64,000 bases of DNA, taken from Branchiostoma floridae. Its lineage: Eukaryota; Chordata; Leptocardii; Amphioxiformes; Branchiostomatidae. Shown here piece after piece: positions 3,930 to 40,608 of this stretch. Below the pieces are notes generated by a model. That model was not told where the DNA came from and did not search any database. It was given only the letters and a program-made list of their open reading frames with translations. The stretch lies in assembly GCF_000003815.2 (NCBI RefSeq), contig NC_049995.1:15916931-15980930 (forward strand), read 5' to 3'. Position numbers and translations under genes: made by a program. Positions within the stretch are counted from its first letter, which is position 1, and each line of letters starts with the position of its first letter.

Positions 3930-4008
3930 ATGGCCAGGTTGGGTCTAGGCTTGGCTGTTGACGTTACGTTTGCCATTTTTCTAGTCGACTCTTCTGAACT
4001 ACCGTCCG
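3930..4008 (+). CDS. Signal-peptide exon, copy B (degenerating)
   Basis: Same 79-nt exon as copies A and C, with changes in the leader (V-D-V-T in place of V-A-V-A, and L-P-S in place of P-P-S). The donor is GCAAGA instead of GTAAGA. GC-AG introns are used occasionally, so the exon may still splice, but the added Asp in the hydrophobic core and the weaker donor suggest decay. Confidence 0.5.
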
Positions 4009-5991: not shown

Positions 5992-6070
5992 ATGGCCAGG
6001 TTGGGCCTAGGCTTGGCTGTTGCCGTTGCGTTTGCCATTTTTCTAGTTGACTCTTCTGAACCACCGTCCG
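5992..6070 (+). CDS. Exon 1: signal peptide (copy C)
   Basis: 79 nt, ATG with a classical hydrophobic leader, ending in phase 1 at a GTAAG donor. Chosen as the main start because it is the nearest of three near-identical copies to exon 2 and has an intact donor. The 5' flank from about 5830 repeats the upstream regions of the other cassettes and of 7320-7450. Confidence 0.75.
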
Positions 6071-9000
6071 GTAAGAAACGTTTTCTGTACTTTACAAATG
6101 TGTCGAGGGTCGTTTACTTTTTGTGCATGTCTTTGCAACTCTTGTCAACATGTTTAAACAGCGGAAGACCAGTTTATAATTTCACCCGCCATTTTATTTT
6201 AAGAATTTTCATGAAAGCAGGATTTGTATTGGGTGTCTGAAATAAGAATGGGACCGACTTATCTAAAAAGAAAAACGAACTAGCCAACGCTAAGGGGGAC
6301 TGACCATTGGCCGATAAGCCAAGCCTTTGTCGGTACAGGTATAAGCTTAGTGACATCTGTGTTTGTTATCAATACATGTGGGTATTGACTGTAGTAACAT
6401 CGACAATTTCAGGGTGACCACATTTAAATTTGTGGCATTTCCAAAATTTGAATGAAGATCTAAAATGGAAAATATATGAATTTTACTCTTTTATGTAGGA
6501 ATTGTGTGTATGTGTGAGTGCATGTTTGTATGTGTGTGCGCGCGTGCGCATGCGTGTGTGTGAACACCAGGCTATTCCATGTGTTGATGTTTTCACAACC
6601 CTCAGGCATCGCTTTGTGCTTTCCACAGTTAATGAGGGACATCAATTTTTGACTTGTCATCATCAAGGTTGAAATGGACAATTACATGTAGCAACAATAT
6701 TAGCTAGGTGCTTCTGTGGTCTGGGAAGGGACGACATTGAAACCTCTTCCTAAAAAATCGGAATATTTCTTTTGACCTTATCCTCATAATTTGCGGTACA
6801 TTGTATTTGCATGCGTACATAAAACAAATGTGGTTCCGTAGTTGTTATCCACTTTGTCTAGGGCATGGTACTGGAAGCCCATCTCTCTCCTACCCGAAGT
6901 CAGGTGCCCAATTTACAACTGGAGAGAGAAAAGTAGGAAAGTCAGGTAAAAGGCCTTTACACAAGGCACAATATGAGTAGCAATGCAGGATTCGAACCTC
7001 TGTCAGATGCCCATTTTACACCTTGAGAAAGGAAAGTAGGAAAGTCATGTAAACTGCCTTTCCCAAGGCACAATATTAGTAGGATTCAAACCCAGGACCC
7101 CTGGGTTCGGGGCCAAACACCCTGCAGTCACTCCACACGACAGCACCATTTTTTTCATTTCTTTCTTCATTTCTTTTATAAAAAGAGCAATACATACCAT
7201 CTTACAAATGATAGGCGTGTAATATAATTGGCCACGGCATCCAACAGTTGATAATCACACTGAGCATCATCAAAATTTCAAATTTTATTACTCAATATGG
7301 CCATTGATATCCCTATGCACTTATTATACTCCATGGAGTTGTTTGGACCCAATCGCGCGTTACTAACCAGAGGATGGTGGTAGAATTTCCCTTGGGACTC
7401 TCCAGTTCGCATCGCTCAAGGACAAAGGCTTTCAGTTGCGCTTTTTACGTGCCGGAGTGTGAGTGTTCTGTCTCCCGGTAGGATTCTTCGTTCGGTCTAC
7501 ACTAGAGTTATCCCAGTTATACCTAACAAGTTACATGCTATGTGTGTTGTGGAATTTGATAATTTGACCGTTGATATTATTTATGCCCTCAGACACAGCA
7601 GCACCGACCAGTGCTCCGGGAGACACAGCAGCACCGACCAGTGCTCCTGGAGACACAGCAGCACCGACCAGTGCTCATGGAGACACAGCAGCACCGACCA
7701 GTGCTCCTGGAGACACAGCAGCACCGACCAGTGCTCCTGGAGACACAGCAGCACCGACCAGTGCTCCGGGAGACACAGCAGCACCGACCAGTACTGATGG
7801 AGACACAGCAGCACCGACCAGTGCTCCTGGAGACACAGCAGCACCGACCAGTACTGATGGAGACACAGCAGCACCAACCAGTGCTCCTGGAGACACAGCA
7901 GCACCGACCAGTGCTCCTGGAGACACAGCAGCACCGACCAGTGCTCCTGGAGACACAGCAGCACCGACCAGTGCTCCGGGAGACACAGCAGCACCGACCA
8001 GTACTGATGGAGACACAGCAGCACCGACCAGTGCTCCTGGAGACACAGCAGCACCGACCAGTGCTCCTGGAGACACAGCTACACCGACCAATGCTCCTGA
8101 AGACACAGCAGCACCAACCAGTGCCCCGGGAGACACAGCATCACCGACCAGTGCTCCGGGAGACACAGCTACACCGACCAATGCTCCGGGAGACACAGCA
8201 GCACCGACCAGTGCTCCTGGAGACACAACAGCACCGACCAGTGCTCCGGGAGACACAGCAGCACCGACCAGTGCCCCGGGAGACACAGCAGCACCGACCA
8301 ATGCTCCTGGAGACACAGCAGCACCGACCAGTGCTCCTGGAGACACAGCAGCACCGACCAGTGCTCCTGGAGACACAGCAGCACCGACCAGTGCTCCTGG
8401 AGACACAGCAGCACCGACCAGTGCTCCTGGAGATACAGCAGCACCGACCAGTGCTCCGGGAGACACAGCAGCTCCGACCAGTGCTCCGGGAGATACAGCA
8501 GCACCGACCAATGCTCCGGGAGACACAGCTACACCGACCAATGCTCCGGGAGACACAGTAGCACCGACCAGTGCTCCTGGGGACACAGCAGCACAGACCA
8601 GTGCTCCCGGATGTGGAGGTATCCTGACGGCTCCCCCTCGAGGTACTGTGACATCACCGAACTACCCCGAGAACTACGGCAACGATGAGACTTGTGAGTG
8701 GACGATCACCGTGGCAGAAGGAAGTGTGATTTTTCTTACGTTTGACAGCTTCCACCTTGAGAACGGTTATGACCATTTGACAATCTACGATAGTGATGCA
8801 ATGTTGCCAAGGTAATGTCTTGAACGGGAAATCAATTTTTTCAGAGTAGAAAAGTTTGGATAAGATGCTGAAATTGAATTCTTGTGTAAATTTTTTCAAG
8901 AATCAAAAGCTTCTTTTTTTTCGGGCAACACAAAAAAAGACAATTATGCTTTACTTTGATTCTCAGCTTAACAGGTGAAACGTCAGTCCACCCCATCACC

Positions 9001-12000
9001 AGTACATCTAACCAGATGTTCGTGAGGTTTACCTCAAACGGGAATAACACGGCCCAGGGGTTCCAGTTCTCCTACATAGATATGGCCAGAGGTGAGGTGT
9101 TTGATTACAGCGATTCACAAATGTTAAAGTTGATCGAGAAATCACCAGAATTCGATTATCATAATATGCTCAAACCAAGGACGTTATATACTCCTTGCTC
9201 AAACTTAGTTAGTTGAGGAATGATGCTTACTAGTCACTACAGAGTTTATTAAATTGCTGCTTTCTTTACTTAACAGGGTGTCCAAAGGACTACGTCCGTA
9301 TTAACGGAGTTTGCTACAAGTTCTTTGCTGAGTATAAGACCTACGATCAGGCCAGGCAGACGTGTGCCATTGACGGGGGACTGTTGGTCATGCCGAAAGA
9401 CAGTGAGACCAACTCTTATTTGGCCAGATTTTTTGGGGATCTCTGGATCGGCCTGAATGACGTCGCTACCGAAGGCCAGTGGGTGTTTGAGGACGGACAA
9501 ACCCTGGAGTCAACCGGCTTCTCCGGCTGGAGTCCCGACGAACCGAGTAATGGATATAATGAAGACTGTGTCGCCCTTTTGGAGGTGTACGGGCAGCTCG
9601 AGTCCGCGTGGAATGATGTGCGTTGCAGCAGGACGACGTCATTCATTTGTCAGATTATAGATCACGGTATGCGTTACATCAGGGCAAATTTCAGTATTTC
9701 CGGACTCGCGCACATGGCCTACGCCTACTCTGAACTGTAGGCTAAACTGCATCTAAACTGATTAGGTACCCTTGGCAAAAGTGCTTGTAAAAATGTTTTT
9801 CTTGGGATATGTTTGAATTTTGGAGGGGCATATTACAGGTAAGGGTTGTAACCTCTATGTTGTGTTGAAAAAACAGATTTTAGTAATATTTGTGGTTGCA
9901 ATAGGTGATTTGGTGTTGTTTACAGGCAGTGAAAAGGAACCTATGTTTTGATCCCGTATAACATATTTCTACCGTAAATTTTGTCCTCGTTTTATCGTCA
10001 AATGATACCTTAGAGGCCGGACAACCATACCAATGTCAGTTTTTCATGTTCTAAAACTCAGGTAGGTGATTCTTGACAGCCTCTTTCTGTCATGATTCCC
10101 ATTGTTAACAACAGGCAGTCTAAATAACGAAATTTTCCCATCACCAAGCAACATTATCATCATAATTGATAAGTCATTATATTTCAACCATACCATAGGT
10201 ATACCTGTACCATCGTTTTACAACCAGGTATTGACCTGAAATCGGGTATAAGAGTAAGTAACAATTTTGGCACACAGTAAAACAAAATGCTTAATTTTGC
10301 GATTTTGGGGCCATTTTTTTGACAAACATTTTTGGCTGCTGTACCCTCCTTTACAACCAAACGACCTGAAATGTGGTAAAGGGGTGCTCTAGATATTTAT
10401 TCAAATGACTCATGTTAACGTTACTAAACTGGACAATGCTTTAGTCACCAGTATCTTGTGCAATATAGACTGATTTAACTAAATTCAAGAACCATTGAAG
10501 TTTAATGTATTTTTTAAAATTATATTTCAAGTTGTTTTGTTCTTGTAAATATCGAATTAAGTAAACCTTTATCAATACTATCTTATGAACTATGGACATT
10601 ATTTTTGCCCTTTTCCAGCCCTTTTGACTCCCAGGAACTGTGCGGATCTGTACGTTCTCGGGGCTCAGGAAAGCGGCACCTACTCTGTCGGCTACCCGGA
10701 ATCATTCCAGGTGTACTGTGACATGGACACGGATAGCGGTGGGTGGACGGTCATACAGCGGCGGCAGGACGGGTCGGTGCCGTTCAACAACACCTGGGAC
10801 CAGTACGTGCAGGTACGCCAAATAACAGTTACTCAGGCAACTGTACACAGTTTTGCAAAAGGCCAAACGTTTCAGATAGCACCCACTGCCTTTCGTCAGT
10901 GACACCAAGGAGGTATTGTTTAAGACCATGATTTATACCCTAATTATAAAGGCACTTACTATATAATACAATAGATAGATCATGTGATATCGCGTGGCGT
11001 GATTGGCAGCGCGTTGGGCTCCGGCCCAAGAGGTCCTGAGTTCGAGTCCCGCTGTGCTACCCGTAGGAAAGGCACTTTACACGACTTTCCTCACCTAACT
11101 AAGATGTATATGAGTACCTAGCTAGTGGCTGATATTTAATTTTATTATAGATTTAATATTATTCGGTAAATAGGGATCTAATTTGTATAAGCAATGGCGA
11201 AATGTTATGACCCAACTCCGGGCATATGAAATAGAATGTAATGAGTAACACATTTATGTCTACAGACATCATTCTACATAACAAACCTGGTTTATTTGGC
11301 AAAGGTATGTGTTCGTGGAACTCTAGTTACGTATATTTTGGCTCCCTGTACCCTGGTATTACAGCCAAATGACCTGAGACCTTGCACACAGGTGCTTTGA
11401 TCATATGCCCACATAGGTGCAATAACAGTTTTGTCATATAATTTTGTGATTTTTGGCCATTTTTTAAAAAAAGGACATTTTTGGCTCCTGTACCCTCGTT
11501 TTACAACTAAACGACCGGAAATTTGGTATGGGAGTTTCCTTCACATATGCGCACATGGATGCAATAACGATTTACACATACAGTACAACAAAATGCCTAA
11601 TTTTACGATTTTTTGGCCATTTTTTTTTACAAAAATAGAACATTTTTGGCTCCTGTACTCTCGTTTACAATCAAATGACCTGAAATTTGGTAAAGGGGTG
11701 CTCTAGATATTTATTCAAATGACCCATGTATAAATTTTTGGCACAACCCACTTCAAAATGATACATTGGGGGATTTTTTTGTCATTTTCCAATAGCCAAA
11801 GACATGTCTATATACCTTAATTAAAAACTTATTTGGCAACCATTCGCGTAGCCTGATTCAATATCCTGAGGAGGATTCGGCAGCCAATCAGCAAGCCTGA
11901 TGTTATCTGGAAGAGTCCATTCCTGCCTGTAGGGGTTAATTTTTTAAATTCATCTTTGGACTTGTGATTATGTTAAGTCTTTCAGTGGGAGTATTTTTGG

Positions 12001-15000
12001 ACTGGTCTATTTTGCAATTTTACATGGGATGTGCTGGGATATTCCATCCTTGCACGGAGGGGATCATCTAAAAATCGTTTTTGGACTTCCATGATTATGT
12101 CAAAGTCCTATTTTAGCGGATGTATTTTTGCACTGGTCCACCTTACGTAGGGGTATCACAGGAAGAGTCCATTCTTGGACGGAGGGTGATTTTTAAAAAT
12201 TCATTTTTGGACAGCTTGTGATTCAAAATTCCATTTTTGATAGGTGTTTTTAGACTGGTCTATTTTACCTTTTCATGCTTGGGGGACCTCTTTTGCTAAG
12301 TTCAATTTTTGACTGGGTTTCTCATTCAAAGGTTACGTTTTCGGCGGGAGTATTTTTTGGACTGGTCTAGTCTAATGGGGTGCACTTAAAGAGTTCATTC
12401 TTGCATAAGAGTCCATTTTTCATATTCCTTTTTGGGCTTTTTGGGTGATTTTCAGAAGTGTTCCATTTTCACACGATTTCGGAGTAGTCTATTGTTGCAT
12501 GGGGAGGGAGATGGCTGAAATATGCTGTATTTGCTCTCAAGCAAATGTCGGCCTTTCTAGTTACCTGAAGATGTTATACCTCGAAAGTTGGTACTACCTG
12601 GTTCGGTGCAAACAAGCCTTCCATTGAAATGAAAAAGACACTTTTTTGAAGCTGAGCTGGCATGAAAAAACAATGCTATCGCGAACGTATAAATCAACAC
12701 CATCTACGGTACGTCAGCTATATGTTTTCAATTTGTCACAGCATCAACTTTCTTGTGCTGGAAACATTTCCAAAGCACTAACAAAAACACAAGTGAATGA
12801 TAGTTTCTCATTATAAACACTATCTACGCGCAAGTTGATATACCTGTTGCTAAATGCTATAAAAACACTGGTAAAGTACCAGTCTTAAGAAACACGAGTA
12901 AGACACCAGTTCCTACATACTTGAAAAAACAGTCATATTGGAGGTGACGTTTTTTTTTTTTAAATCAGTCTTTTTATTGTTTATAACCAACATAAATTTT
13001 ACAGAAAGAAAAACATACAGAAAATAAAGGCACATGTGTAACAACAAAACTGAAACTTAAAATCCAAGAACAATAGAGTATGATCATAAAATGCCGTGAG
13101 AACCCCTATCATTGTACAGGAAAATAACGGAAATTAACTAGATAAAACAATATGTAGTTTCCCCCACTTCCCATGGAATGTGTTTCTGAATCTTATTTTT
13201 GCGTTGAGCAATAATGAATTCTAATTTTTGAAAATAGGAAACAAATGAAATAAAACCAGATAAATCAACATGTTTTTTACGATACCTAAATATATAACAT
13301 TTACCTAAGAGAATAATAAGATTTGACAGAACAGGACATCGGTCGCTTAGATCACCAAGGACAGTATTGAAAGCATTCATATGTAAATTTGTCTTTGTCA
13401 AGTTAAAAAACCAATCCTCCACTTCAGCCCAGAAATTAGCTACAATTCTACAATTCCAAAATAAATGTATGATTGTTTCCTCCTCTTCATGACACAGACT
13501 ACATAAAGGGGAGTCTATCAGGCCCCAGGTGTATAGTGTTTTATTTACTGTTAAGAATCTAAAAAGCGTCTTAAACTGAAACATCCTTGTATAAGTATCA
13601 ATTGTGAGCTTATAAGGTAAGCTGTAAACTTGTCTCCATGGGATAGGAGTGTTGAAAATTTCCTCCCAAGACAACTGTACTCTATACGACGGTTCACAAA
13701 CCTTGTCATCGTTGATAAAGAAAAGGTAAAAATGTTTATTGATGAGTTTTTTTCTAAGCCAAGTTGTGTCTCTACAAATGGGCATGCAAACTTGTAAGAT
13801 ATGAGATGCTTTCTTTAATAACGATTTCCAGTGGGCTGGTATAGCAGAAATTAACTGATTGTATTGTAATTTTGTACACATCCCCAAATTTTAGAATGAA
13901 ATTTTCATAAGAAAGAAATCTATTTTTTAAATCCAATATATCATTAAGAAATCGAACTCCCCCAGTATCAAAAGCTGTGGAAAAGAATGGTTTTTGACCA
14001 ATACATATATTCGAGTTCAAATAGAGAAGCTGTTGTTTGACCTCGTCCACACCCTCTGGGGGTCGGAGTTGGAAGCGCAACCAATATTGTATGACCTGTC
14101 TGAAAAAGGAAGTTATCGGCGGATTCTTACCCATAAAATTATCAAAATCATTCACGGACAGAAAGTTGTACAAAGGGGAACAAGGAAGTCCGTAACAATG
14201 AACAAGACATAAATAAAAAGTTGGAACAGAACCATTCTCTGTTTAACTGTAGCTTAGGAATCCAAGAGGCTTTTAGGGTGAGATCGACCGACCGCAAATT
14301 TCTTAGCTTAAGTCCCCCCTGTTCATAAGCACTGTAAATAGTCTTTCTACTAACTCGCTCCGGCCCACCTCCCCATAGAAATCGAAATATTTTCTTTTCA
14401 TATTTGACAAAAAAATCAGGCGTTGGGGACGGAAGCGAGCCAAGTAAATATATAAATTGCGATACAATAAGTGTGTTTATTAAAGTAACTTTACCCATGA
14501 GTGTTAAAGTCTTTGTCTTCCAAGGAAATAAAAGTTTATCGATCTTAGTGAATTTCCTATCAAAGTTTATACTAATTATATCCGAAAGTTGTACAGGAAT
14601 ATGAATTCCCAAAAGGTCGATGGGGCCGTCTGTCCATTGAATTAGCACTATCCTCTATACAAGCGTTACCTACAGCAGAAGTTAAGGAAAAAGAAGTTAA
14701 AAAATAGTCTATTCTACTGGCCTGGTGCCTCCGTCTCCAAGTATAACGTGTTGTTCTGGGGTTATAATATCTATAAATATCATGTAAATCTAAATTAGCG
14801 CATAAAGAGTTAATTGCTGTACGACACTTAGGGTGATAAACTGCAGCGTGATGCCCAGCTCTGTCAATCTCCGGGTTCAATATAGTATTAAAATCACCAA
14901 CAATAATAGTATTTAAATCTGACGCTATGTGATTGTGTATTGTTGTTTCAAGGTTATAGAAGAAGTCTGGGTCATCAGAGTTAGGGGCATAAATATTGGC

Positions 15001-21000: not shown

Positions 21001-24000
21001 TGTTCCTTGATAACTGTATATGCATTTTGTCGTAAAATTGTCTTACGGAAAAAAATCAGATATTGTTACCACTGTTAACAAAAATGCTATTGTTTCCCCA
21101 AGCATTTTTTTGTAACCCTTAAACTCCAGTCCAGTGGTTTTGAGAATTATCATGCCATGATCTTTAAACTGACCAAAATTAAGAAAAGAGCTATAAAATG
21201 CTCTTGTCTCACCTAGCGTTTCATTTTCTAACCCTTAACGTCGAGTAGCTTGATAATTAGAACTGACAAAAAATGAGACCTTAAATTGTGTGGAAACTAT
21301 TTGTTGAAAAAAGTTAAGACAGCATTTATCTTGAAAACATTCCATGATCATGTCCGCGTATTGTATGTCAGTGCCTCCTGTCAATGATTATATCATGTGA
21401 ATAGTTTCATATTCAAGGCGATATCTCTATACTGTTTTGACGTTTAGTGTGCCTGCCAACTCCTGAGGATCTCAACCTCGGGTACAAACATACGATGCTG
21501 CCCAATCAGCTGGGCCAGACGACATTTGAGGAGATTCAGAATTCCCCTGTCGTGGAGCTGCTCAACAGTTCGACCAGCAACGCAGAGAACCGACATCCTG
21601 ATTCCGGGATTTCGCATCTGCGGTCATCTTCCCGCGATGTTCGGGACGTTATTTCCGGTGAGTAAAAGGCTGGAGGAATTACGCTACAATGTTGTTGATG
21701 GTATGTTTAACACGTACTGTCTAGTATGTTCATACTCACTATTACAAAAAAAACATTCGTTTTAATTTTGGTTTTACTGTGCTGGGGGTGATAAAGAACA
21801 AACAAAACAAAACCTCACATGCGCATGTGTACATCATCCCTGCTGTTTCTGATGAAGAATAGAACTTTGGTACAAACCTCTATATTGTATATTGTAGGCA
21901 AACACAACGGGTACCGTGCCGCTCCTGGTGTGAGGAAGTCCTCAACATGGCTGATGACCGGACGAAGACTCTGTTTCCTACCTGTGACCTGTTTCCGTCA
22001 CCACCACACGTCTGTTGGAACCCTATACCAGAGAAGAATTATGGCGAAAGTAAGCACGATTCATCAATTTCTACTGGTAGTATTACCTACAGAATGGCTG
22101 ATACTGGATATACCAGTTAAGGGGTCTTAGCTACGAGGCATTTGACATTTATTTCTCAATTAGAGTCATGGTTTAAGAAAGAGATCAGTAGGTTTTAATG
22201 TCTCTGCAAATGTTAAAAAGCATTCTGTATCTCACCCGTGTTGTTCATTCTGGATAAAGTTGAACTGCAATTTCCGACACAAAAAATGACTTATCCGAAG
22301 TCGAATGGTCGACTCTGGACATTGACAAATGCATCAAATCTCTAAGATCAACATATCAATTCAAACTTCTACCAGAAAAGTGTATTTCTACTACGTTCAA
22401 AACTCCCTTACTTTCAGAGAATAGTACTTGGAACTCACTACAATTCACGAGCAGATCTCTAATAACATCTCCAAATGTATCCATAGAAACCTTCAGAATT
22501 TCCATTCTCAGTCATTGCCATCATCTCATGCCTGATACATTTGATCTGCAAAACATTTACTTATGTTCTTAGGCTCAGCTATGAGTACTATAATTATTAA
22601 TTATTACCATTATTTGTATTATTTTAGCCATTAGTGTTGTCTATTACTCGCCTTATCTTTGTAATAGTTGCCTAGTTGCATTTATTGCCGTTCATATAAC
22701 CTGTATGCGATTGTTTTGCTGTACGTGTTTGTTATGTTTTAGACCAGTATTCTATTCTTTTTTCCTCTTTATTTCCTCTGTAATGGGACAAAGTTTAGAT
22801 AAATTGATAAATAAATGCCATAGTCCTGAAGCAACTTTGATTTCATCGCACACATTCGGGAATGAATCAGTTTTTAAGTTCTGATGACATGGCTGTTTCT
22901 TCTCCCCAGATTGCTACCATGGTAGCGGCATAAACTACCGCGGCACATGGAGTAAAACTGCTTCCGGGGCAGATTGTGTGGAGTGGTCCGTTGCAAATGT
23001 GACTGGCTACCCCTGGGCTAACATAGAGAACAACTACTGCCGAAACCCTTACAGGCTTGCGCGGCCATTTTGTAAGGTGGAAAATGGTAGCGACGAGGAG
23101 TGTGACGTCATCCCGTGCAGTAAGTTGTGTTGCCAAGATGGGATGCATCCTTAAAACCATAGCACTTTCTGAAGGTCACTCGTAAACATTTATTGTCAAG
23201 AGGTCAAAGTGAAAATCAATAAGGCCTGAAACAAAAACTTGATTCCTCAGCAACATCAAGGGTGTTATTTTCCGATAGATATTATTTTTAGGAAGTACAA
23301 AATGCATATTGCTTCAAAAATACTTTAACCCTACTCAAATGGGGGGGGGGGGGGGGGGTGAGGCCTGTCCCAAATTTCTTGTCACATAACGCACGAACGG
23401 CTTACGCTGGAGCTACCAAATCTGGTGAGTTATCCCTTAAAATATGTAACTACCTGGTATTTTCCCTTTAAATATGTTTTAATAAACGTTTTTTTCCCTT
23501 TAAATATGTTTTAATAAACGTTTTTATTCTATTTCTATTGTCTTTTGCGATTGCTTGCTGAAAAATGTATTTTTGAAAATTCGAGTTGTTACAATTTGTA
23601 GCGAACCTCGAAGTATTTTGGGAATATACTTTAAAGCTTTTAAGCGTTATAATAGCGTCAAATTTCTTAAAGTCTTTATTATGTCTACACAATTATCTGA
23701 AAATCTGGTGGCCATATAATACGTCGTTCAAGTGTTACATGAGTTAGAAGGGCGAGCCTCAAACGTACCCCCATCAGAGATTGATAATTAGATAGGTCTG
23801 AATAGGGTTAAAGTACCCAGTAGTCCCGTATCTATCCGAATGGTAAGTGCATGGGTAGGGTCTGCATGGGGTGTCATGTCGCGTTGCGTAATTGACCACA
23901 AATAGAATTTTGTAAAAAGTCGTCGTCTGATTATGTTTTCTGCCTATCCTGCCCAAGTACTTAGGCCAGTATTCATTGATACATAATCTGTCGAAAAATA

Positions 24001-27000
24001 ACACCCCCTTCTGGAGTTAAGTAATTCTTTAATCACTGTGCGTACGCAGAGCCATCGATTTTCCTATCAAAATCAGACTTTTTTTTCATTTGAAATTTTT
24101 GTTTTATTACGATAGAGTTAAGTCATTTGTTTCGTGTTCAATAAATCCACTACCGAAATGCATTATATTCTGAGTATTATCTGTCGATTAGCCACCTCGT
24201 ACAAAACAGGTGCTTTGTGCGAGCGATTTCCTCGACAATGTCTTGAAGCAATCTTTCTTAAGCATAATGATTCTTATTGCGTGAATTATAACACCCAGAT
24301 ATAGCTGTTTGCTTGGACATGGGCCCTCCAGACCACGGCAGTAGAAGCCCTACCAAGAGGTTCTACAACGTGGGAGAAAAGGTCAAGTACACCTGCGACG
24401 AAGGTTACACCCTGGACTCCAGACATACCAGCAGAGTCAGGTGCTTCGAAGGAGGCATCTGGCAATATGACAAACCCAGCTGTTCAGGTAATTGTGATAG
24501 AGTTGTGAAAAACCCTGTATTTTCTACAAAGATGTACATTCTAAGTTTAGCACTTAGAGACAAGATGGCGCATGAGGATACGCAAGGAGGTATGTTTTCT
24601 TGAAAGCAAATGCATCATTTTTTTTTCATTTTTGTAGAGTGAAGTATCTGTTAAATATAACGAAGGAACTCTATTTGACAGCTATAACAAATAACAAGAT
24701 ATTGTCAAAGTTATAAAACAGGAAAACAAACACCATTACATTACGTAAGCAACCCAAAATTTTCTGTACCTCTCCAGACATAATAGCTTAACAGATTTGC
24801 CTGAACACATTTGAATAACTCTAAAAAATGATAATAAAAAAACACCTAACATGGCACATCACATTTACAAGTACCCAAGCCAGATATGCCTTTCAGTTGC
24901 TTAACCTTAAAATCTGCTGAAATTTTCCCCTCGTTTTATAAATTTGTACGAGTAACTAGAACTATGCCTAAGTAACTGTTTTTGTGCTGTTAGTTACTTT
25001 GTTATCTAAAATCTAATATTCCAAACATCTTGAAACGAAATTCGATCTGCGTTTGATCCTAACGATGGACATGCATCATTCCTCTCCTTAGTGGATATAA
25101 AAGGTACACTGCAAGATGACCTACTCGACGGATACAGTCCAAACCAGGCGCCAGATGCTGAGACTAAGAACCGCACACTTGTCATCTTCAGTGGTAATGT
25201 GGAACAGATCACCGACCTGGTAAGCTTTACTATCTATAATGTATGTGAGATTCTTCTGGGTTTATAAACTGCACAACAGAATTTAAGTAATCGAAGCTGC
25301 AACTTTTATTTCAGGACGAAAAGAAGGAGCTTCTAGTTGCATCCCTAGTCATTGAATTCGTAAGTGGACCCAGTTATAACACCTTTCGTCACTTTCAAAA
25401 ATCTTCTGTTTATGTCGTTTTGCATTGATTGATGGAGTTTAGTGGCTTTTTCCACAAAATTGCATAATATTAAAAATATATATTTTGTCAGACCTGGCAG
25501 GACAGCCGACTGAAGTGGAAATCGCAGTACTACGGGAACACCAAGATCCTCAGCGTCCCGGGCAGCAGCATCTGGACCCCTACACTTACTCTGAAGAGGA
25601 AGTATGTGCTTGTCTCTTCTTAAACATTTATCATGGCATAAGATGGAATCTTGCTTAATCTTTTCATCGTAGTTTCAGAAATATAATGAATTATAATGAA
25701 TATGTTTAACAGGCAAACAATAATTTTGTTGTGCCCAACGTAGCAGGATTCTACCTAAGTCCAATATGAATGTTCATATTGGACTTAGGTAGAATTTATA
25801 GTATTTATGACGACTCCGGAGACAATTCTGTAAACAGGTCCTTCATACTGGTAGATCTAGATAGTAGATAGATTCCTATTAATCAGTTAATGAAAACCAC
25901 ATTGATATTTAATCTTGTAAATGTGTATTTATTGTATCGACCGCCACTGTTAAATGTTCAGGACAGGGAGCATTTAGAATGTTAAACTCCAGATGGTCAG
26001 GCTCTAGTGAGATTATCTCACAGCTGTGAATTACGTTTATAGTATTTTGATACTAATTTTTTTCTTTTAATCTTATAGTTGTAAACATGTATAGTGTTTT
26101 AATAACTCTGTTGTTCTGTTGATTGTAGTTTCAGCAGTCAGCTTTTGACTTTATGTGCAAGGAGTGTGCAATTCAGGCAACAGGCTGCAAAATGCCTTTG
26201 TCGATTTGTACAATAAACCATTTATGAATGAATGGATAAGGGTATGCTTGTTCCGCAACAATGTAGATTTAACAGAAAGTGATTCTTTTCTTTATGGCTA
26301 ATCGAATTAAGATTACACAGGTACTGAAGTTCTATATCAAACTTGCTTTTTCAGACATACGAGGAATTTCATTTTACTAGTAAACAGAATATTGTTCAGG
26401 ATTCTAACTCAATGCAACACAACAACTAACAGTACAAGTACGAGGAAACAATGGTTGTCAGAAAACTGAGAAATGACGAGACTTTGTTGATTTTGCACAG
26501 TGCCGATCCTTTATACAAATTACCTAAGGACGTACCGATCCTGATCAGCACCGATGGTACGGTAACATGGAGGGTGGAGACTCTGACCAGCACCATCTGC
26601 AATGCAGACCCGTTCCTCTTCCCTGCCGACACCATGGAGTGTCACATCTGTTTCTCCATATCTGCAATTGAGCAAACCATCGGTAAGGTTTTAGCAATCT
26701 GTCATGAAAACATATACAGTCAAACCTGCCCGAGCGACCACCTCTTCTCAGCGACCACCTGGCCATTTCGACCGCTTTTCCTCGGTTCCGATTTTTTTCC
26801 CATTGACGTAAGCATTAAGTGACCTTTTCTCAACGACCACCTGGCCAACGCGACCGCGACCGGCCCAAATTGGGACGCATAACGACCGCATCATTTTCAA
26901 AATTGAGGTTTTCATCGATTTTTTATGATAACTAGCACGATTATGTGCCGCAATCGGCCAGTTCGCCACGGCTTTTGACTGCCATTACGATGTTATGTTT

Positions 27001-29819
27001 AGAATACAGATGGCGGCGGTCAATGGGTGGGTCAATGGGGCAGTCTACTGTAATATGGGAGGAAATTCCGTTGTAAGAAAATCCGAATTTAGTTGTTACT
27101 GTTTTTTTTTTCAATCTATATCATCATAAGGTGAACGAATGCTGAAACGTATATAGCCTCATAGTTTTTCAAGAAAGATCTGTGTAGCTCATACCTTTTT
27201 AAGAAAGATCTGTGTGAGTGCTTTTGTTCAACTGTACTGTACATTCACCCGTGGGTAAGTACGCTATCGGGACGTACCGGGCATCGAATTCGAAAAGTGC
27301 ACCGTAGTTATTTCAGATACAGCGATCAAGAACACAGTGACGCATAAAGGCTTGTATGGTAACAGACAGCATCAAAGTTCCCTTACTGTCTAGAACGTTA
27401 GTGTACAAATATTGAGCTTTAGAACACTGTATCGAATAAAAGCTCGATAAAAGCTTGGGGTGTGCGTGTTGTATTTGACATTAAAGACCTCTCTTCTTTG
27501 CGCACGTGCAGTGTGCTTGCTATTTGCCATTAAACACAGCGGAAACCATTTATACTTTGCATCGGGCATGTTTTGAGTTGATACTCTTCTCAGCGACCAC
27601 CTGTCCAAATCGACCGTTTTTTCCGGTCCCCAGGGTGGTCGACTTGGGCAGGTTTGACTGTAATCAATTTCATTCTATTAATATTGGTGTAATTGTTTTT
27701 CAAATTTAGAGACCATAAATCAAGTAACACATGTTAAAGCGATACAAAACGGGAAAACAACCCGCAAGAATTTCCTACATTCAATCATATAGTGGCACTT
27801 GTGTCAACATGAAACATATCAATATGAGAATGTCCACAACAAGGAAAGCTAATAATGCCACGTTACCCAATGATAATTTGTTGTAATTATTTGTGAAACA
27901 CAGAATGTGGAGGGGGCAATGCCTGTGGCGTGTGGTCGCCCCCACAACAGGAGGGCGAATGGAATCGGAAGGACAAAATATTCGCTGAAGGCAACAAGAC
28001 GGCGTGCTTTACTGTTCATCTGGAGAGGATCCCCCTGTTCCACATCGCCACGACTGTTGGTCCTTGCGTCATCCTGGTGGTGCTGATGACCATCACCTTC
28101 GTCATGCCCATAGACAAGGGAGACCGGATATCCTTCGGAGTGACCATTCAGCTCTCCATGGTCGTGTCTCTCGTGTTTGTCACGGAGGTACTTCCTGTGA
28201 AAGGAGCACTGCCATTTTTCGGTGAGGAAAGTTATGCTGTTTCTCTTTTATGTTCTTTGAGCACCAAGTAGCTCTTGAGTCGATTTATTTTGTATTCTGG
28301 AAACTGGAGAAGTAGGTCCTTGCATCACGTATGGCCTTTACCTGGCCAATGTTTCGGTAGCTCCTCAGCTGCCGTTCTAAGGGCCTGAAAGAACGCTGTA
28401 GAAAAAATGTCCACGTGATGAGGTCGTGATTCAAGGCCAAGGGCCTCATTTTCTAATATTAATCTGATGTTACGGTACATACCGGTAACTGTTAACCACG
28501 AATTATATTACAGCCACGCTGATCGTCGTGTGCATGGGGCTAATGGGACTTTTCCTGTTCTTCACCATGTACATCATCAGCCTCCACGACAAGGAGGGGA
28601 GCCTGTCTCCAATAGCGAAGACTTTCTTTCTCCGCTACATGGCAAGGTACGTACTCACCTACTCAAAACAAATACAAAAAAAGCAAACTATATACGATGC
28701 CCTCCACATCGCGGCTTGTTCCGTGTTCTTGATGGTTGCCTAGACTTGTTGCATTGATTTCTACATGGCATTTCACACTTGGTGTTGCACTGAGAACAAC
28801 GCGAAGCTTAACCGAATCGATTGGCATCTTCAACTCAAATTTCATCTGCTATAGCATGCATGCAATCAAGAAGAGAATATTCTGACGTCAGTAGGCAGAT
28901 GCCAGCTGATTTTTTTGTCGATGACTCCTGGTGGCAACATTTCGTACATCCTCTATGAAGCGATCTGAACGCTAGAGCATAGTATTGATCCAAAATAGTT
29001 GTGAATGTGAATGGATGTAGACATCCGCATCACCGTATTTCCTTCTTATTGATGTTCAGGTTCCTGCTGCTCGGAGACCTCACAGAGAAGGAGGCTGCGA
29101 GCGGGGATGGAGAGGCTAGTCTGACTGGCGGGAAGCTGGCCTGGCCTAAGGGAACCTACCGCGTCATCTCTGCCGATGGCGTGGCGAAGGTTGACGGAGA
29201 GGAGATCACAGATAATGTCGACGAAGACGTGGTGGAGAGCGACGGAACGACCCCGGCTGATGTCTCCGATGACGTGGTGAGGGTTGACGTAGAGGCGCCA
29301 GCTGATGTCTCCGATGACGTAGCGGAGGCTGACGTAGAGACCCCAGCTGATGTCTCCGATGACGTGGCTGAGGTCGACGTAGAGACCCCGGCTGATATCT
29401 CCGATGACGTAGCGGAGGCTGACGTAGAGACCCCAGCTGATGTATCCAACACCACCGGCGACATCCCTGCTGATGACGTGACGGAGTCCAACAAAGAGTC
29501 AGCCGCCGCTGTCTCCAAAAGAACCCGTCAGCCGTCCGGACCGCCCACCCGCCTGGAGGCCGCCGTGGAAGAGCAGACCTCCTGCCTGCGTGACCTTATC
29601 CGACAGAACGAGCAGCAGACGAAGGAGCTGATTCACATCTTTAAGGAGCAGGCGATGAAGACCGAGCAACAGTTTGAGGAGCTGACCAAGGCGGTGAAGA
29701 ATGAGCCGGAGGTGTCCGATTACACCCTGCTGACCCAGGTGCTGGACAGGCTGTGCCTTGTCCTGTACGTCATCAGCGTTGTCGTGGCCGTGCCCATGAC
29801 CATGAGTCTGGGCAAGTAA
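5992..29819 (+). CDS. Chimeric multi-domain lectin/Cys-loop receptor ion channel (22 exons)
   Basis: Exons: 5992-6070, 7593-8811, 8967-9091, 9277-9666, 10619-10812, 15956-16109, 17280-17615, 18468-18857, 19734-19835, 20383-20589, 20873-20989, 21448-21657, 21898-22049, 22910-23119, 24305-24487, 25092-25219, 25315-25359, 25492-25601, 26501-26682, 27904-28221, 28514-28646, 29060-29819. Exon sum 5744 nt; adding the base apparently missing from the Frizzled exon makes 5745, a multiple of three (about 1914 residues). Domain order by residue: signal 1-22, mucin repeats 27-366, CUB 367-473, C-type lectin 475-604, fibrinogen-related 605-832, C-type lectin 833-962, EGF-like 963-996, Ser/Thr linker 997-1065, LDLa 1066-1104, Frizzled CRD 1105-1225, kringle 1226-1295, CCP 1296-1356, pentameric channel 1357-1914. 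Predicted type: plasma-membrane cation channel with a very large N-terminal ectodomain. No second ATG/signal exon is seen between CCP and channel. A two-gene alternative cannot be fully excluded without cDNA. Confidence 0.75.
6500..6560. repeat. (GT)n-like stretch in intron 1
   Basis: Short GT/GC-rich run matching the long one at 3183 within the duplicated cassette. Confidence 0.7.
6845..7150 (-). mobile_element. tRNA-derived SINE copy in intron 1
   Basis: Near match to 4060-4345, including its internal duplication, so it was present before the cassette was duplicated and can be used to order the events. Confidence 0.6.
7593..8811 (+). CDS. Exon 2: 34 mucin-like decapeptide repeats plus first part of CUB domain
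   Basis: Exactly 34 units of 30 bp (7592-8611, the first base supplied by exon 1) encode D-T-A-A-P-T-S-A-P-G with few variants (T-D-G in place of A-P-G; A-T-P-T-N). Thr/Ser/Pro density predicts heavy O-glycosylation and an extended stalk. The frame runs straight into C-G-G-I, the start of a CUB domain with Y-P-E-N-Y and Y-D-H-L-T-I-Y-D motifs. The acceptor is ccctcag and the exon ends in phase 2 at GTAATG. The repeats are near-perfect in DNA, so the copy number is probably polymorphic. Confidence 0.85.
8967..9091 (+). CDS. Exon 3: CUB domain, second part
   Basis: Completes the CUB fold (F-V-R-F-T-S-N, then G-F-Q-F-S-Y). Phase 2 in, phase 1 out. Only two cysteines are seen in the whole CUB, not the usual four. 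The calcium-site residues of cbEGF-CUB type domains (Glu before Y-D, and Asp after I-Y-D) appear kept. Confidence 0.8.
9277..9666 (+). CDS. Exon 4: C-type lectin domain 1
   Basis: Single-exon CTLD, phase 1-1, starting G-C-P-K and ending F-I-C-Q. It has the W-I-G-L-N-D core, a D-E-P-S-N segment where sugar-binding lectins have EPN or QPD, and an intact W-N-D motif (A-W-N-D-V-R-C). Calcium site 2 is therefore nearly complete, with Ser in place of the EPN Asn. Carbohydrate binding is plausible but its specificity cannot be stated. Confidence 0.9.
10619..10812 (+). CDS. Exon 5: fibrinogen-related domain, part 1
   Basis: Begins N-C-A-D-L-Y and contains Y-C-D-M-D-T-D-S-G-G-W-T-V-I-Q-R-R, the hallmark of fibrinogen C-terminal domains. 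Phase 1 in, phase 0 out (GTACGC donor). The following intron (5.1 kb) is full of mobile elements. Confidence 0.9.
10985..11110 (+). mobile_element. tRNA-derived SINE, sense copy
   Basis: An A-box-like 'tggcgtgattggcagcgc' is followed about 35 bp later by a B box (gagttcgagtcccg), then a body 'aggaaaggcactttacacg'. It is not a functional tRNA: the cloverleaf is not completed and the non-tRNA body follows directly. Confidence 0.65.
11330..11750. repeat. Minisatellite, 180-bp-class units
   Basis: About two and a half units with 'tttttggctcctgtaccctc', 'acgacctgaaatttggta' and 'gcaataac' motifs. A further unit is at 10220-10430 and a related array (163-bp units, opposite orientation) at 49060-49680. 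Probably the internal array of the Helitron-like element that ends at 12559. Confidence 0.6.
12515..12559 (+). mobile_element. Helitron-like 3' terminus
   Basis: Stem ATTTGCT / AGCAAAT with a 4-nt loop, ten bases, then CTAG followed by T: the layout of a Helitron 3' end (hairpin then CTRR, insertion before T). Two other ends at 30449-30483 (+) and 46560-46600 (-) keep stem and spacing while the loop differs. The 5' TC end was not located. Confidence 0.6.
12948..15320 (-). mobile_element. Defective L1/Tx1-type LINE
   Basis: Minus-strand remnant ending in a poly-A (T13 at about 12950-12962). The 5' part (about 15320 to 14640) encodes an APE-type endonuclease with I-I-V-G-D-F-N-T. The part from 14648 to 13138 encodes the thumb/C-terminal region, with a zinc-knuckle-like C-S-L-C-H...H-L-F-W-N-C. 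The catalytic reverse transcriptase palm is deleted at about 14640, and a frameshift lies near 13830, so it is immobile. Confidence 0.8.
15956..16109 (+). CDS. Exon 6: fibrinogen-related domain, part 2
   Basis: Encodes G-E-F-W-L-G-L-D and L-Y-V-S-L-E-D-W, conserved in the middle of fibrinogen-related domains. Phase 0 in, phase 1 out (GTATTA donor). Confidence 0.88.
16141..17275 (+). mobile_element. 5'-truncated CR1/L2-like LINE with (CATT)n tail
   Basis: Frames at 16154-16495 and 16489-16900 encode the C-terminal end of a non-LTR reverse transcriptase (D-L-G-D-L-V-Q-S-D-L, L-V-R-S-L-L-E, V-Q-R-R-A-T-K, then L-S-Y-R-R-E and a C-T-W-x-x-x-C-x-C end). They are joined only by a frameshift near 16470. 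A tetranucleotide run CATT at 17181-17270 closes the element, as is typical for this group. The whole lies in intron 6. Confidence 0.75.
17181..17270. repeat. (CATT)n microsatellite
   Basis: About 22 tandem CATT units, ending only about 10 bp before the acceptor of exon 7. It replaces most of the usual pyrimidine tract, so expansion or loss could influence splicing. Confidence 0.95.
17280..17615 (+). CDS. Exon 7: fibrinogen-related domain, part 3
   Basis: Completes the domain with T-K-D-Q-D-N-D (the calcium-binding DxD-ND loop), N-N-C-A, G-G-W-W-Y-P-P-G-C and the terminal M-M-I-R-P. The two cysteines and aromatic pocket region are intact, so ligand recognition is plausible. Phase 1-1. Confidence 0.9.
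18468..18857 (+). CDS. Exon 8: C-type lectin domain 2
   Basis: Same size (390 nt) and phase as exon 4 and clearly a duplicate: W-I-G-L-N-D and E-G-Q-W-V-F-E-D-G are shared. The EPS segment is replaced by G-P-R-Q-S-N and W-N-D by W-R-N, so calcium site 2 is lost. It probably does not bind sugar by the canonical route. The introns before both CTLD exons also share sequence (for example 'aggaatgatgcttactag'). Confidence 0.9.
19734..19835 (+). CDS. Exon 9: EGF-like domain with missing cysteines
   Basis: Encodes G-S-C-K-N-G-G-T-V then S-C-S-C-P-A-G-W-K-G-K-Y-C. Only four cysteines are present: the third is Val and the first is absent. Phase 1-1. Aberrant but recognisable from the C-S-C-P-x-G-W-x-G-x-x-C end. 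Confidence 0.75.
20383..20589 (+). CDS. Exon 10: Thr/Ser/Ala-rich linker
   Basis: Phase 1-1 exon of 69 codons, almost all Thr, Ser and Ala with no cysteine, built on ACT/GCT triplets; a likely O-glycosylated spacer. The donor GTAAAC at 20590 keeps the frame into the LDLa exon; reading through it gives a stop at 20607. Low complexity makes this the least certain exon. Confidence 0.55.
20873..20989 (+). CDS. Exon 11: LDL-receptor class A domain
   Basis: Six cysteines with canonical spacing, R-C-D-G-R-T-D-C and the calcium box D-W-S-D-E. Phase 1-1, bounded by cacag and GTAAG. Confidence 0.92.
21448..21657 (+). CDS. Exon 12: Frizzled-type cysteine-rich domain, part 1 (one-base frameshift)
   Basis: The first frame gives L-G-Y-K-H-T-M-L-P-N-Q-L-G-Q-T-T, typical of Frizzled CRDs. 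Near 21602-21620 similarity moves to another frame, F-A-S-A-V-I-F-P-R-C, which also has the phase 2 ending that exon 13 needs. The other frames give no CRD match there. One base therefore seems missing (for example one T in the run at about 21602). It is either an assembly error or a real null allele. Confidence 0.7.
21898..22049 (+). CDS. Exon 13: Frizzled-type cysteine-rich domain, part 2
   Basis: In phase 2 the exon reads V-P-C-R-S-W-C-E-E-V-L and later P-T-C-D-L-F-P and C-W-N-P, the second half of a Frizzled CRD. The longest open frame here is a different one without cysteine pattern and is wrong. Ends in phase 1, matching the kringle exon. Confidence 0.8.
22910..23119 (+). CDS. Exon 14: kringle domain
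   Basis: Reads C-Y-H-G-S-G-I-N-Y-R-G-T, W-S-V-A-N-V, N-N-Y-C-R-N-P and A-R-P-F-C-K-V, ending C-D-V-I-P-C: all hallmarks of a kringle, phase 1-1. A CRD next to a kringle recalls ROR receptors. No long + strand ORF marks this exon because it is closed by introns. Confidence 0.9.
23341..23358. repeat. G homopolymer
   Basis: Run of about 18 G in intron 14; likely length-variable and error-prone. The rest of intron 14 (23120-24304) shows nothing recognisable. Confidence 0.9.
24305..24487 (+). CDS. Exon 15: sushi/CCP domain
   Basis: V-G-E-K-V-K-Y-T-C-D-E-G-Y-T-L, V-R-C-F-E-G-G-I-W and P-S-C give a standard four-cysteine CCP module. Phase 1-1, and it is the last ectodomain module before the channel part. 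Confidence 0.92.
25092..25219 (+). CDS. Exon 16: Cys-loop receptor ligand-binding domain, start
   Basis: Encodes the N-terminal helix and first strand region (L-L-D-G-Y-S-P-N, then T-L-V-I-F-S-G). Phase 1 in, joining the CCP exon; phase 0 out. There is no ATG with a signal sequence immediately upstream. Confidence 0.75.
25315..25359 (+). CDS. Exon 17: ligand-binding domain microexon
   Basis: 45 nt, phase 0-0, encoding D-E-K-K-E...S-L-V-I-E-F, the equivalent of the conserved strand with a 45-nt exon in nicotinic receptor genes. Confidence 0.75.
25492..25601 (+). CDS. Exon 18: ligand-binding domain
   Basis: 110 nt, phase 0 in and 2 out, with W-Q-D-S-R-L-K-W (the conserved WxDxRLxW) and S-S-I-W-T-P-T-L-T-L. 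The 45- and 110-nt exon pair is itself a classical nicotinic receptor gene feature. Confidence 0.88.
25748..25795. repeat. Perfect 23-bp inverted repeat with 2-nt loop
   Basis: The arm 'attctacctaagtccaatat' plus gaa is followed after TG by its exact complement. In intron 18. The transcript would form an uninterrupted hairpin. Confidence 0.85.
26501..26682 (+). CDS. Exon 19: ligand-binding domain with the Cys-loop
   Basis: The two cysteines are 13 residues apart with F-P-A-D between, the diagnostic Cys-loop (C-x13-C with FPxD). Phase 2 in, phase 1 out (GTAAGG). Confidence 0.92.
26717..27660. mobile_element. TIR element flanked by TA (pogo/Tigger-like, non-autonomous)
   Basis: Terminal inverted repeats 'cagtcaaacctgccc' and its complement at the right end, with TA on both sides. 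944 bp, no transposase frame. Lies in intron 19. Confidence 0.65.
27904..28221 (+). CDS. Exon 20: end of ligand-binding domain, TM1 and pore-lining TM2
   Basis: After E-G-E-W-N and a single loop-C-region Cys (K-T-A-C-F) comes R-I-P-L-F-H, TM1, then G-D-R-I-S-F-G-V-T and L-S-M-V-V-S-L. Aligned to nicotinic TM2 this puts Asp at -1', Leu at 9' and Glu at 20', as in cation-selective channels. No vicinal Cys pair of alpha subunits. A C-G-G-G-N-A-C pair before E-G-E-W-N is unusual. Confidence 0.93.
28514..28646 (+). CDS. Exon 21: TM3
   Basis: Hydrophobic segment T-L-I-V-V-C-M-G-L-M-G-L-F-L-F-F ending S-L-H-D-K-E-G-S, matching TM3 and the start of the intracellular loop of Cys-loop receptors. Phase 1 in, 2 out. 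Confidence 0.88.
29060..29819 (+). CDS. Exon 22: cytoplasmic loop, MA helix, TM4 and stop
   Basis: The first 150 residues include about five copies of an acidic 15-residue repeat (variants of V-E-T-P-A-D-V-S-D-D-V-A-E-A-D). A charged amphipathic helix follows (E-E-Q-T-S-C-L-R-D-L-I), then TM4 (L-D-R-L-C-L-V-L-Y-V-I-S-V-V-V) and the stop at 29817-29819. A strongly acidic intracellular vestibule is implied. A possible poly-A signal (AATAAA) is at about 30602. Confidence 0.88.
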
Positions 29820-32422: not shown

Positions 32423-32687
32423 CATGGCTGCTGTAGACCAAGAACTGAACCACACGACAGAGCAGTTCCGACGGTCCTCGTTCCTACCAAGACAAGAGCT
32501 ATCTGCACGGGTTTCTTGGAACTGTGGGTGACTTACAGAAGGCTGGGGTACTGCAGGATGTCGTCCTTGAAGTCGAGGACCGGCGGTTTCTCTGCCTTCG
32601 GCTTGTTCTGTCCGCGGCCAGCCCCTACTTCAGGGCCATGTTTACAAGTGACATGGCGGAAAGTCATCATAATAAAGTTGTTTTGCA
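32423..32687 (+). pseudogene. BTB-domain exon (kelch-like family), frameshifted
   Basis: From about 32490 one frame reads A-G-V-L-Q-D-V-V-L-E-V, L-S-A-A-S-P-Y-F-R-A-M-F and S-D-M-A-E-S, a BTB core of KLHL type, ending at a GTAGGG donor. The start (M-A-A-V-D-Q-E-L-N) is in another frame, so one indel near 32490 breaks it. The conserved H-R before V-L-S-A is L-R. No BACK or kelch exons were found downstream on this strand up to 34 kb, so it is probably a truncated copy. Confidence 0.6.
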
Positions 32688-32689
32688 GG

Positions 32690-40400: not shown

Positions 40401-40608
40401 GCGTTACGGACATCTCATTCGTAGTTTCCTCTTTCTTGGTTTTCACACTTTCTTCTGTGATGGTCTCAGTCTTTTCCGTCTCTTCGACTGTTGTCTCTCC
40501 CGTAATTGTTTCTGTGTTTTTCTCTTTTTCACCAGTCTCACGATCAGCCTTAGTGGTTTCTGCGGACGTAAAGTTACGATGTTGCTTGAGTGTTAATTTG
40601 GAGGCCAT
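34039..40608 (-). CDS. Glu/Lys/Thr-rich protein with C-terminal discoidin domain and basic tail
   Basis: Two exons, 40608-35278 and 34476-34039, phase 0 junction, about 1922 residues. Residues 1-1600 are a polyampholyte of Glu, Lys, Thr and Val without Cys, Trp or aromatic clusters. They are organised in imperfect units of about 40 residues around T-K-K-E-E-T and V-S-V-K-E-E-E-K-T-E, and are probably disordered. Residues from about 1660 form a linker and an F5/8 type C domain (A-G-A-W-C-A, L-L-I-D-L-E, V-T-G-I-V-T-Q-G-R, W-V-T-S-Y; then F-K-G-N-V-D-T-D-T-P in the second exon). The last 90 residues are basic, with S-K-R-K-K-K-S-S-R-K-K-K. No signal peptide is seen at the ATG, but an upstream exon joining at about 40614 (frame open) is possible. 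Function unknown. It shares its linker-discoidin plan with the neighbouring array. Confidence 0.75.
34837..35161. mobile_element. TIR element (MITE) in the intron
   Basis: 325 bp with 13-bp terminal inverted repeats 'cagggctcgaaat'; TACTA lies immediately on both sides. Internal 'gtgcaccca' motifs are repeated on both arms. TIR start CAGGG resembles hAT elements, but the 5-bp flank is shorter than the usual 8, so the superfamily is left open. Confidence 0.7.

Follow-up and report, generated by a model that had tools for sequence, protein, structure and literature searches.

Pentameric Cys-loop subunits of animals canonically carry their ligand-binding domain (LBD) straight after the signal peptide. 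In the stretch of Branchiostoma floridae DNA analysed here (64,000 nucleotides, hereafter the window), an initial annotation described a single gene in which a nicotinic-type channel subunit stands at the end of a long series of lectin and receptor modules. The locus raises the question of whether this ectodomain and channel belong to one gene or are two neighbours joined on paper, and, if they are one gene, what the resulting protein might do.

Exon structure and domain identity of the window gene

Rebuilding the gene from the bases recovered all 22 annotated exons at 5992-29819, on one (forward) strand and with the order and splice sites proposed; every intron is GT-AG. The signal peptide exon (E01, 5992-6070), which ends in phase 1, is followed by an exon with mucin-like repeats (34 x 30 bp) and the first half of a CUB domain (E02, 7593-8811), the second CUB half (E03, 8967-9091) and a first C-type lectin-like domain (CTLD; E04, 9277-9666). 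The fibrinogen-related domain (FReD) is split over three exons (E05, 10619-10812; E06, 15956-16109; E07, 17280-17615), and its introns hold LINE-like endonuclease/reverse-transcriptase remnants, a label given by eye, at 13138-15315 (reverse strand) and 16148-16495 (forward strand). A second CTLD (E08, 18468-18857), an EGF-like domain (E09, 19734-19835) and a Ser/Thr-rich stalk (E10, 20383-20589) lead to the LDLa module (E11, 20873-20989), the two parts of a Frizzled-type CRD (E12, 21448-21657; E13, 21898-22049), a kringle (E14, 22910-23119) and a CCP/Sushi module (E15, 24305-24487). This is the module order given in the annotation, which closed, as we also find, with a complete nicotinic acetylcholine receptor (nAChR)-like subunit.

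The ligand-binding domain of the channel starts in E16 (25092-25219), which is entered in phase 1 and has no start of its own. It continues through exons of 45 bp (E17, 25315-25359) and 110 bp (E18, 25492-25601; loop A region), sizes that are canonical for nicotinic genes, to an exon with a 13-residue Cys-loop (E19, 26501-26682). A shortened loop F/C region, M1 and M2 share E20 (27904-28221), M3 lies in E21 (28514-28646), and the cytoplasmic loop, M4 and the stop codon lie in E22 (29060-29819). The M3-M4 loop contains 45-bp coding repeats (29173-29447), and the length of the exon match varies among relatives. On the same strand, 3′ of the channel gene, there is an exon that looks BTB-like by eye (32449-32739).

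Pfam backs every named window module save the mucin-like, Ser/Thr-rich and CRD segments. Matches above the cut-off in the ectodomain were Fibrinogen_C (3.3e-70), Lectin_C (2e-35, two stretches) and CUB (4.6e-23), together with EGF (22.3 bits, cut-off 21.5); those in the stalk were Ldl_recept_a (2.4e-8), Kringle (3.2e-12) and Sushi (8.2e-9). The channel matched Neur_chan_LBD (PF02931, 2.5e-29) and Neur_chan_memb (PF02932, 3.2e-15), the latter alignment spanning positions 2-227 of 233. CUB_2 and the lectin-like Chordopox_A33R fell just under the cut-off. Neither window piece of the Frizzled CRD gave a match to PF01392 at E ≤ 1e-2. The corresponding domain scored 22.6 bits in a relative, P1 (cut-off 32.1), and 50.6 bits, above the cut-off, in another, C230, where the best solved relative is Sizzled (1.6e-7). 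The CRD label in the window depends on these relatives, and its own copy appears too derived or too broken to score.

The annotation had also noted that one base must be restored to keep the frame. In agreement, the exons total 5,744 nt and need one more base to be divisible by three, and we located the missing base in E12, which hands the wrong phase to the next exon.

Recurrence of stalk and channel across the genome

The claim of one gene had been rested on the compatible phases of the exon junctions and on a total divisible by three. The fusion itself stands at the DNA level through the family evidence given below; phase compatibility as its proof does not. Compatible phases are a weak argument because class 1-1 modules and a phase-1 signal intron match by construction, and for the same reason divisibility by three carries no weight. 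Strand, phases and open exons within the window therefore cannot decide the matter, and we turned to the whole source assembly of the window (513,431,437 bases in 431 contigs).

Searching with a 200-bp stretch on the first channel exon gave matches at 18 further sites in the genome, and the order LDLa, CRD (exons CRDa and CRDb), kringle, CCP, channel recurred on one strand in six of the seven loci fetched, P7 being the exception. Queries were then run with the M1-M2, CCP, CRDa, CRDb and kringle exons, no more than the best 150 candidates of each being scored and, for the kringle, the best 68 of 133 matches used. This listed 129 matches to the M1-M2 exon, of which 42 were strong (E ≤ 1e-31). 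Among the matches listed, CRDa, CRDb, kringle and CCP lie upstream, on the same strand and in the same order, at 41 of the 42 strong M1-M2 matches, and CCP lies upstream at all 42. Downstream stalk modules were found at none of them (0/42), and each module occurs on the other strand within 40 kb at 4/42. The relation also holds when read from the stalk: among the matches listed, the channel is downstream of 24/24 CRDa and 41/42 CRDb matches (E ≤ 1e-10) and of 31/31 CCP and 36/37 kringle matches (E ≤ 1e-20).

The association weakens with the channel match. The next 21 M1-M2 matches listed (E 1e-31 to 1e-15), one of which is a second piece of a locus already counted, have a kringle in 20 cases, CCP in 17, CRDb in 10 and CRDa in one. 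For the 66 weaker matches listed, the upstream modules are CCP (12), kringle (3) and CRD (0); these 66, some of them not separate loci, make up the whole baseline for ordinary channels, kringle matches weaker than 7e-8 having been excluded. When pieces within 3 kb are merged, there are at least 120 distinct channel loci, with a kringle upstream of 63, CCP of 65 and CRDb of 50, and the full core (CRDa, CRDb, kringle, CCP, channel) is present at no fewer than 41 loci. This pattern of co-location indicates that modules and channel have been inherited together and that the modules do not accompany channels in general. The fusion is almost certainly real at the level of DNA, and represents an expanded lancelet family of about forty copies that departs from the canonical layout of animal Cys-loop subunits. 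A chimeric assembly at the window locus was also considered, and is ruled out by the 41 dispersed loci with the same order.

Some loci differ in detail. On C11 and C3 the modules lie 23-29 kb away from the M1-M2 exon. At C5:4746166-4749092 stands a full CRD-kringle-CCP set for which the matches listed include no channel in the 40 kb downstream; a truncated gene and a secreted relative are candidate readings. At C8:9517020-9519578, a complete CRD-kringle-CCP set without an M1-M2 match (among the matches listed) stands before a second set with its channel, which begins at 9524191; duplication of the ectodomain and loss of a channel are the candidate readings for this doubled set.

If a secreted mosaic lectin and a separate channel gene were simply adjacent, the channel would need its own start and signal peptide between CCP and E16. 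No such signal exon was seen at 24488-25092 in the window, where the best candidate reached a 9-residue hydropathy of 0.84, compared with 3.08 for the real signal exon. The same search over 10 CCP-channel gaps (at least 13 codons, a phase-1 GTA/GTG donor, the best four candidates per gap) gave a best value of 2.03 (P1), again below the 3.08 of the one known signal exon. In the gaps of the C18 (223 bp) and C12 (323 bp) members there is no ATG with a usable phase-1 donor. Of the 16 loci that have CCP and the first channel exon, 15 place them 227-2,032 bp apart and the remaining one 21,776 bp (median 864 bp). Ectodomain and channel have also diverged together: the distances of ectodomain core and channel are correlated over 9 loci (Mantel r 0.904, 1 of 20,000 permutations; window, P1-P6, C12 and C18, with P7, C230 and exon E18 excluded). 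Two neighbouring genes, or an artefact of the kind made by gene prediction, are made conceivable by the spurious domain fusions documented in lancelet gene models (PMC4967905, in the text accessible), by the core set on C5 that has no listed channel match and by the fact that phase compatibility alone does not exclude them. Against the shared order at 41 of 42 dispersed loci (among the matches listed), the short gaps free of start candidates, the low hydropathy of the best candidate elsewhere and this joint divergence, we consider such an explanation very improbable.

Members of the family were read individually. The one at C18:5,852,500-5,866,499 (reverse strand) is intact, with 15 exons, 3,495 nt and 1,164 amino acids, GT-AG introns throughout, no internal stops and a terminal stop; the acceptor of its Ser/Thr exon was picked by hand among alternatives. 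Its order is signal peptide, F5/8C domain (PF00754, 1.1e-10; PF22633, 1.6e-11), Ser/Thr-rich stretch, LDLa, CRD, kringle, CCP, channel with M4 and stop. P1, P4 and P6 have a core that is open from LDLa to the stop in automatic models that are approximate, since they enter the last exon at an internal AG and truncate both the kringle of P6 and the Cys-loop exon of P1. Splice phases are conserved in the loci inspected.

The outer parts of these proteins differ. Among the matches listed, counted by proximity within 40 kb on the same strand and without the use of splicing, a CTLD lies upstream of at least 16 of the 42 members (none downstream, one on the other strand), CUB upstream of at least 14 of 42 (one downstream) and F5/8C upstream of at least 10 of 42 (none downstream, two on the other strand). 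CUB arrays lie near some other members, and further kringle-like exons precede the core in P2, P3, P5 and P6. Just under the cut-off are a PAN-like exon in P1 and a WSC-like exon in P2, to which exons in P3 and P5 are alike by eye. FReD and EGF occur only in the window among the stretches fetched, which do not include every head whole. Judged from these comparisons, the outermost modules vary between members and the stalk is constant. The window gene would be one member of the family, with a constant LDLa-CRD-kringle-CCP stalk ahead of the LBD and its own head further out.

The signal exon itself is repeated. It stands three times in tandem with flanking repeats, at 2633-2711 (same peptide as E01, GT donor), 3930-4008 (variant peptide, GC at the donor) and 5992-6070, and the three copies are possible alternative first exons. 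The 26-residue E01 peptide is identical to the opening of the C12 member and shares 22/26 residues with that of the C18 member, and family channels at C12, C17:16.41 and C18 have the signal exon in front of them. Copies of it also occur at C17:17569898-17596033 with F5/8C and CTLD exons like those of the heads, and no family channel was found near them among the matches listed; this is possibly a secreted relative that shares head exons. Since the signal exon is present at C17:17.57-17.60 Mb without a family channel, exchange of heads with secreted lectin genes is suggested.

F5/8C-like exons are also found on the reverse strand of the window. One at 42.7-43.1 kb matches an F5/8C head (E 1.7e-32), and an array of alike exons of ~150 amino acids (AGAWCAATNDDKQFLLIDLE...VTSYTLSYGLENGDE) at 50252-63875 is F5/8C (discoidin)-like by eye. 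At 35227-40665 an open frame of 1,812 amino acids, with Thr/Glu/Lys-rich repeats of ~130-bp period, terminates in a discoidin-like motif as in this array.

Constraint differs along the protein. Median dN/dS was 0.18 for M1-M3, 0.24 for the LBD and 0.53 for the ectodomain core (28 pairs, 8 sequences; stop codons skipped, P2 excluded for E18, and P7 represented in the core by its CCP alone). Conservation among the measured parts is therefore highest in the pore, and change is fastest in the ectodomain. An ectodomain value of ~0.5 is weak constraint, a level at which diversification and relaxation are inseparable by this measure; two close pairs gave ectodomain values of 0.10 and 0.23.

Not every copy is whole. 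The equivalent of E12 reads straight through in 6/6 relatives examined, and the defect therefore belongs to the window copy or its assembly. In its assembled form the window copy has no frame for the full protein; when E12 and E13 are skipped, 1,793 amino acids can be read without interruption. P5 has a stop within its kringle exon. In P2 (C18:4.32 Mb; L015 4640-4800), a deletion has removed the first part of the E18 equivalent and merged the remainder with the end of the E17 equivalent. Within the stretch fetched for P7, CCP is the one stalk module present, and LDLa, CRD and kringle are missing. These lesions, with that of the window, suggest that some family members may be decaying.

The break in the CRD of the window copy could reflect an allele, a mistake in the assembly or decay. 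That it is a pseudogene of an otherwise functional family would account for the one-base shift absent from the relatives, for the LINE-like remnants (by eye) inside the FReD introns and for the company of other damaged copies. Set against this, the remaining 21 exons are open with GT-AG sites, a one-base difference can be an assembly error and the frame stays open with the CRD pair skipped. The dN/dS between the window and P1 is 0.21 (M1-M3) and 0.30 (LBD), yet 0.56 for the ectodomain core. A pseudogene is quite possible on these data, and we somewhat doubt it.

Pore, transmitter pocket and predicted gating

The best solved relative of the channel is the human alpha-7 nAChR (9nx0, E 6e-33). 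All 11 sequences compared, including the window, keep the Cys-loop cysteines with the proline and aspartate of the 13-residue loop (FPxD), the pre-M1 arginine, M2 -1′D, 6′T and 9′L, and the M2-M3 proline. The M2 motif is GDRIS in 10/11 sequences and GDRIG in C230, with -1′D in 11/11, and position 20′ is E or D in 10/11. In cation-selective members of the superfamily, M2 is acidic at -1′ and has no inserted proline, and these sequences have both features of this branch.

The transmitter site has been lost. Acetylcholine is held by an aromatic box (W55, Y93, W149, Y188 and Y195) with vicinal cysteines in alpha subunits. When aligned through alpha-7, W55 is replaced by V in 10/10 sequences with letters at this position, and Y93 by K in 10/11 and by E in one. 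The loop B segment that holds W149 falls in an alignment gap, and the region from loop B to loop C is shortened. Neither the loop C tyrosines nor the vicinal cysteines (YxCC) were found in the sequences inspected, and a short three-cysteine segment replaces the loop C residues in 10/10 main-group sequences. The aromatic box and vicinal cysteines that characterise acetylcholine-gated nAChRs are thus not retained in the members inspected. By its residues, the pore is nicotinic and cation-type, and none of the 11 sequences inspected retains the acetylcholine pocket. With the pocket lost but the pore, the Cys-loop and the M2-M3 loop retained, acetylcholine would no longer open the channel.

Loss of the pocket could also mean that these proteins conduct nothing, and that the channel part serves just to assemble the pentamer and display the heads, as an accessory or decoy subunit. 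The degenerate pocket fits this idea. M1-M3, however, is under the strongest constraint of the parts measured (the median of 0.18 given above), and 9′L, 6′T and -1′D are kept in 11/11; we therefore think a non-conducting subunit improbable. Our best reading is that the family comprises putative orphan cation channels with interchangeable recognition heads.

How such a protein arose and worked can be pictured as follows. Class 1-1 modules would have entered the phase-1 intron between the signal exon and the ligand-binding domain. Five subunits would then form a cation pore that displays five heads, which may bind surface or matrix glycans or protein partners of host, prey or microbial origin. 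The stalk would transmit binding at the heads to the old ligand-binding domain, and the channel would thereby be gated or biased; the outcome would be a repertoire of glycan- or surface-gated cation channels. Coupling of recognition to ion flow, which the annotation had proposed, is plausible, and the loss of the pocket and the variable heads fit it. Taken by itself, gating from head to pore has in our judgement slightly less than an even chance of being correct. As a whole, a lancelet family with a constant stalk, member-specific heads and a head-gated cation channel is the best explanation we can offer, and on balance a probable one.

The main rival is a scaffold built into the channel, because LEV-9, LEV-10, Neto and SOL-2 use CCP, CUB and LDLa modules on receptors (PMC9083331, in the text accessible). 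Here the ectodomain would anchor and cluster the channel without gating it, another ligand or partner subunits would open it, and one polypeptide would do the work of separate CCP (LEV-9, Hig), CUB-LDLa (LEV-10, Neto, SOL-2) and CRD-kringle (MuSK/ROR) proteins. LDLa and CCP in the stalk and the frequent CUB domains of the heads are indeed module types of receptor-clustering and auxiliary proteins (as far as PMC9083331 describes them), CRD and kringle in the stalk are those of MuSK and ROR, and heads that vary over a constant stalk suit a scaffold as well. Clustering alone, however, gives no reason for the transmitter pocket to disappear, as it has from the 11 sequences inspected, nor for the heads to be variable and rich in lectins. 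In LEV-10, moreover, the CUB domains matter and LDLa is dispensable (per the accessible part of PMC9083331), yet CUB lies outside the constant stalk here. We regard a tethered scaffold as unlikely, and continue to prefer head-gated channels.

The fullest form of that preference can be advanced tentatively. In this form, the lancelet would have a repertoire, no fewer than 41 full-core loci strong, of pentavalent cation channels gated by glycans, matrix or microbes, each joining the unchanging LDLa-CRD-kringle-CCP-channel unit to exchangeable lectin-type heads and serving immunity, chemosensation or cell recognition. No eukaryotic pentameric channel with N-terminal sensor domains would have been described before them.

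Relation to known channels and auxiliary proteins

A structural study of 2022 states, in its accessible text, that N-terminal domains before the LBD had not been observed in any eukaryotic homologue (PMC9897478), and another report, as far as its text is available, sets animal channels against fused bacterial ones (PMC549065). In the part of PMC4795631 available, terminal parts were dropped before analysis, the association of pentameric ligand-gated ion channels (pLGICs) with other domains was so far evidenced only at the genome level, and assembly errors were suspected behind some edge cases. The accessible text of PMC6354393 deals with lancelet nAChR expansions and does not mention such extra domains. 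That of PMC12373286 reports channel activity and C-type lectin domains as enriched in dispensable lancelet genes and names no such family; the enrichment would fit lectin-headed channels. Searched by term, the available text of PMC6071037, PMC4284660, PMC6896357 and PMC6526094 gave no match to a lectin-headed channel. Within the open PMC literature, supplements (e.g. Table S2 of PMC4967905) and subscription papers aside, we found no animal Cys-loop channel described with an ectodomain of this kind. By sequence the family belongs to the channel superfamily; its architecture is one that we did not find described in animals.

One relevant earlier case is a lancelet ortholog pair, 269420_PRF0, listed as a Branchiostoma-unique architecture with Neur_chan_memb (PMC4967905). 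Its likeness to the present family is the channel domain, its other domains not being named in the text available. The same authors warn, in that text, that such novel lancelet architectures may be prediction errors. Our family data argue against prediction error for the lectin-headed channel architecture, and so address a single instance of the worry that gene prediction creates domain fusions in lancelets.

If true, head-gated channels would break the rule that eukaryotes have no N-terminal domains before the LBD, would link surface recognition to membrane current in a new way and would be a natural test of whether remote ectodomains gate a pentameric channel. They would also act as a Rosetta-stone fusion, from which CCP, CUB-LDLa and CRD-kringle proteins are predicted to act on nicotinic-type channels in other animals.

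The family resembles nAChR subunits in the homology of LBD and membrane domain, the 13-residue Cys-loop, four membrane segments and a cation-type M2. It differs from them in the large N-terminal mosaic ectodomain, the lost W55/Y93/loop C pocket and the shortened region between loops B and C. ROR and MuSK have a Frizzled CRD and then a kringle, with a tyrosine kinase after these. The CRD-kringle order is present in the lancelet family, whereas CCP and a channel follow the kringle, and the Pfam scan of the window gave no kinase domain. Like DeCLIC and other prokaryotic pLGICs with N-terminal domains, the lancelet subunits have extra domains ahead of the LBD. The domain types differ, as the Pfam scan of the window ectodomain gave none of the PBP-I, Cache or MCP-N types by which such prokaryotic domains are recognised. 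Finally, CCP, CUB and LDLa modules are shared with LEV-9, LEV-10, Neto, SOL-2 and Hig, whose modules act on ionotropic receptors (PMC9083331, in the text accessible). In those systems they belong to separate proteins, whereas in the lancelet family they are covalently part of the channel subunit.
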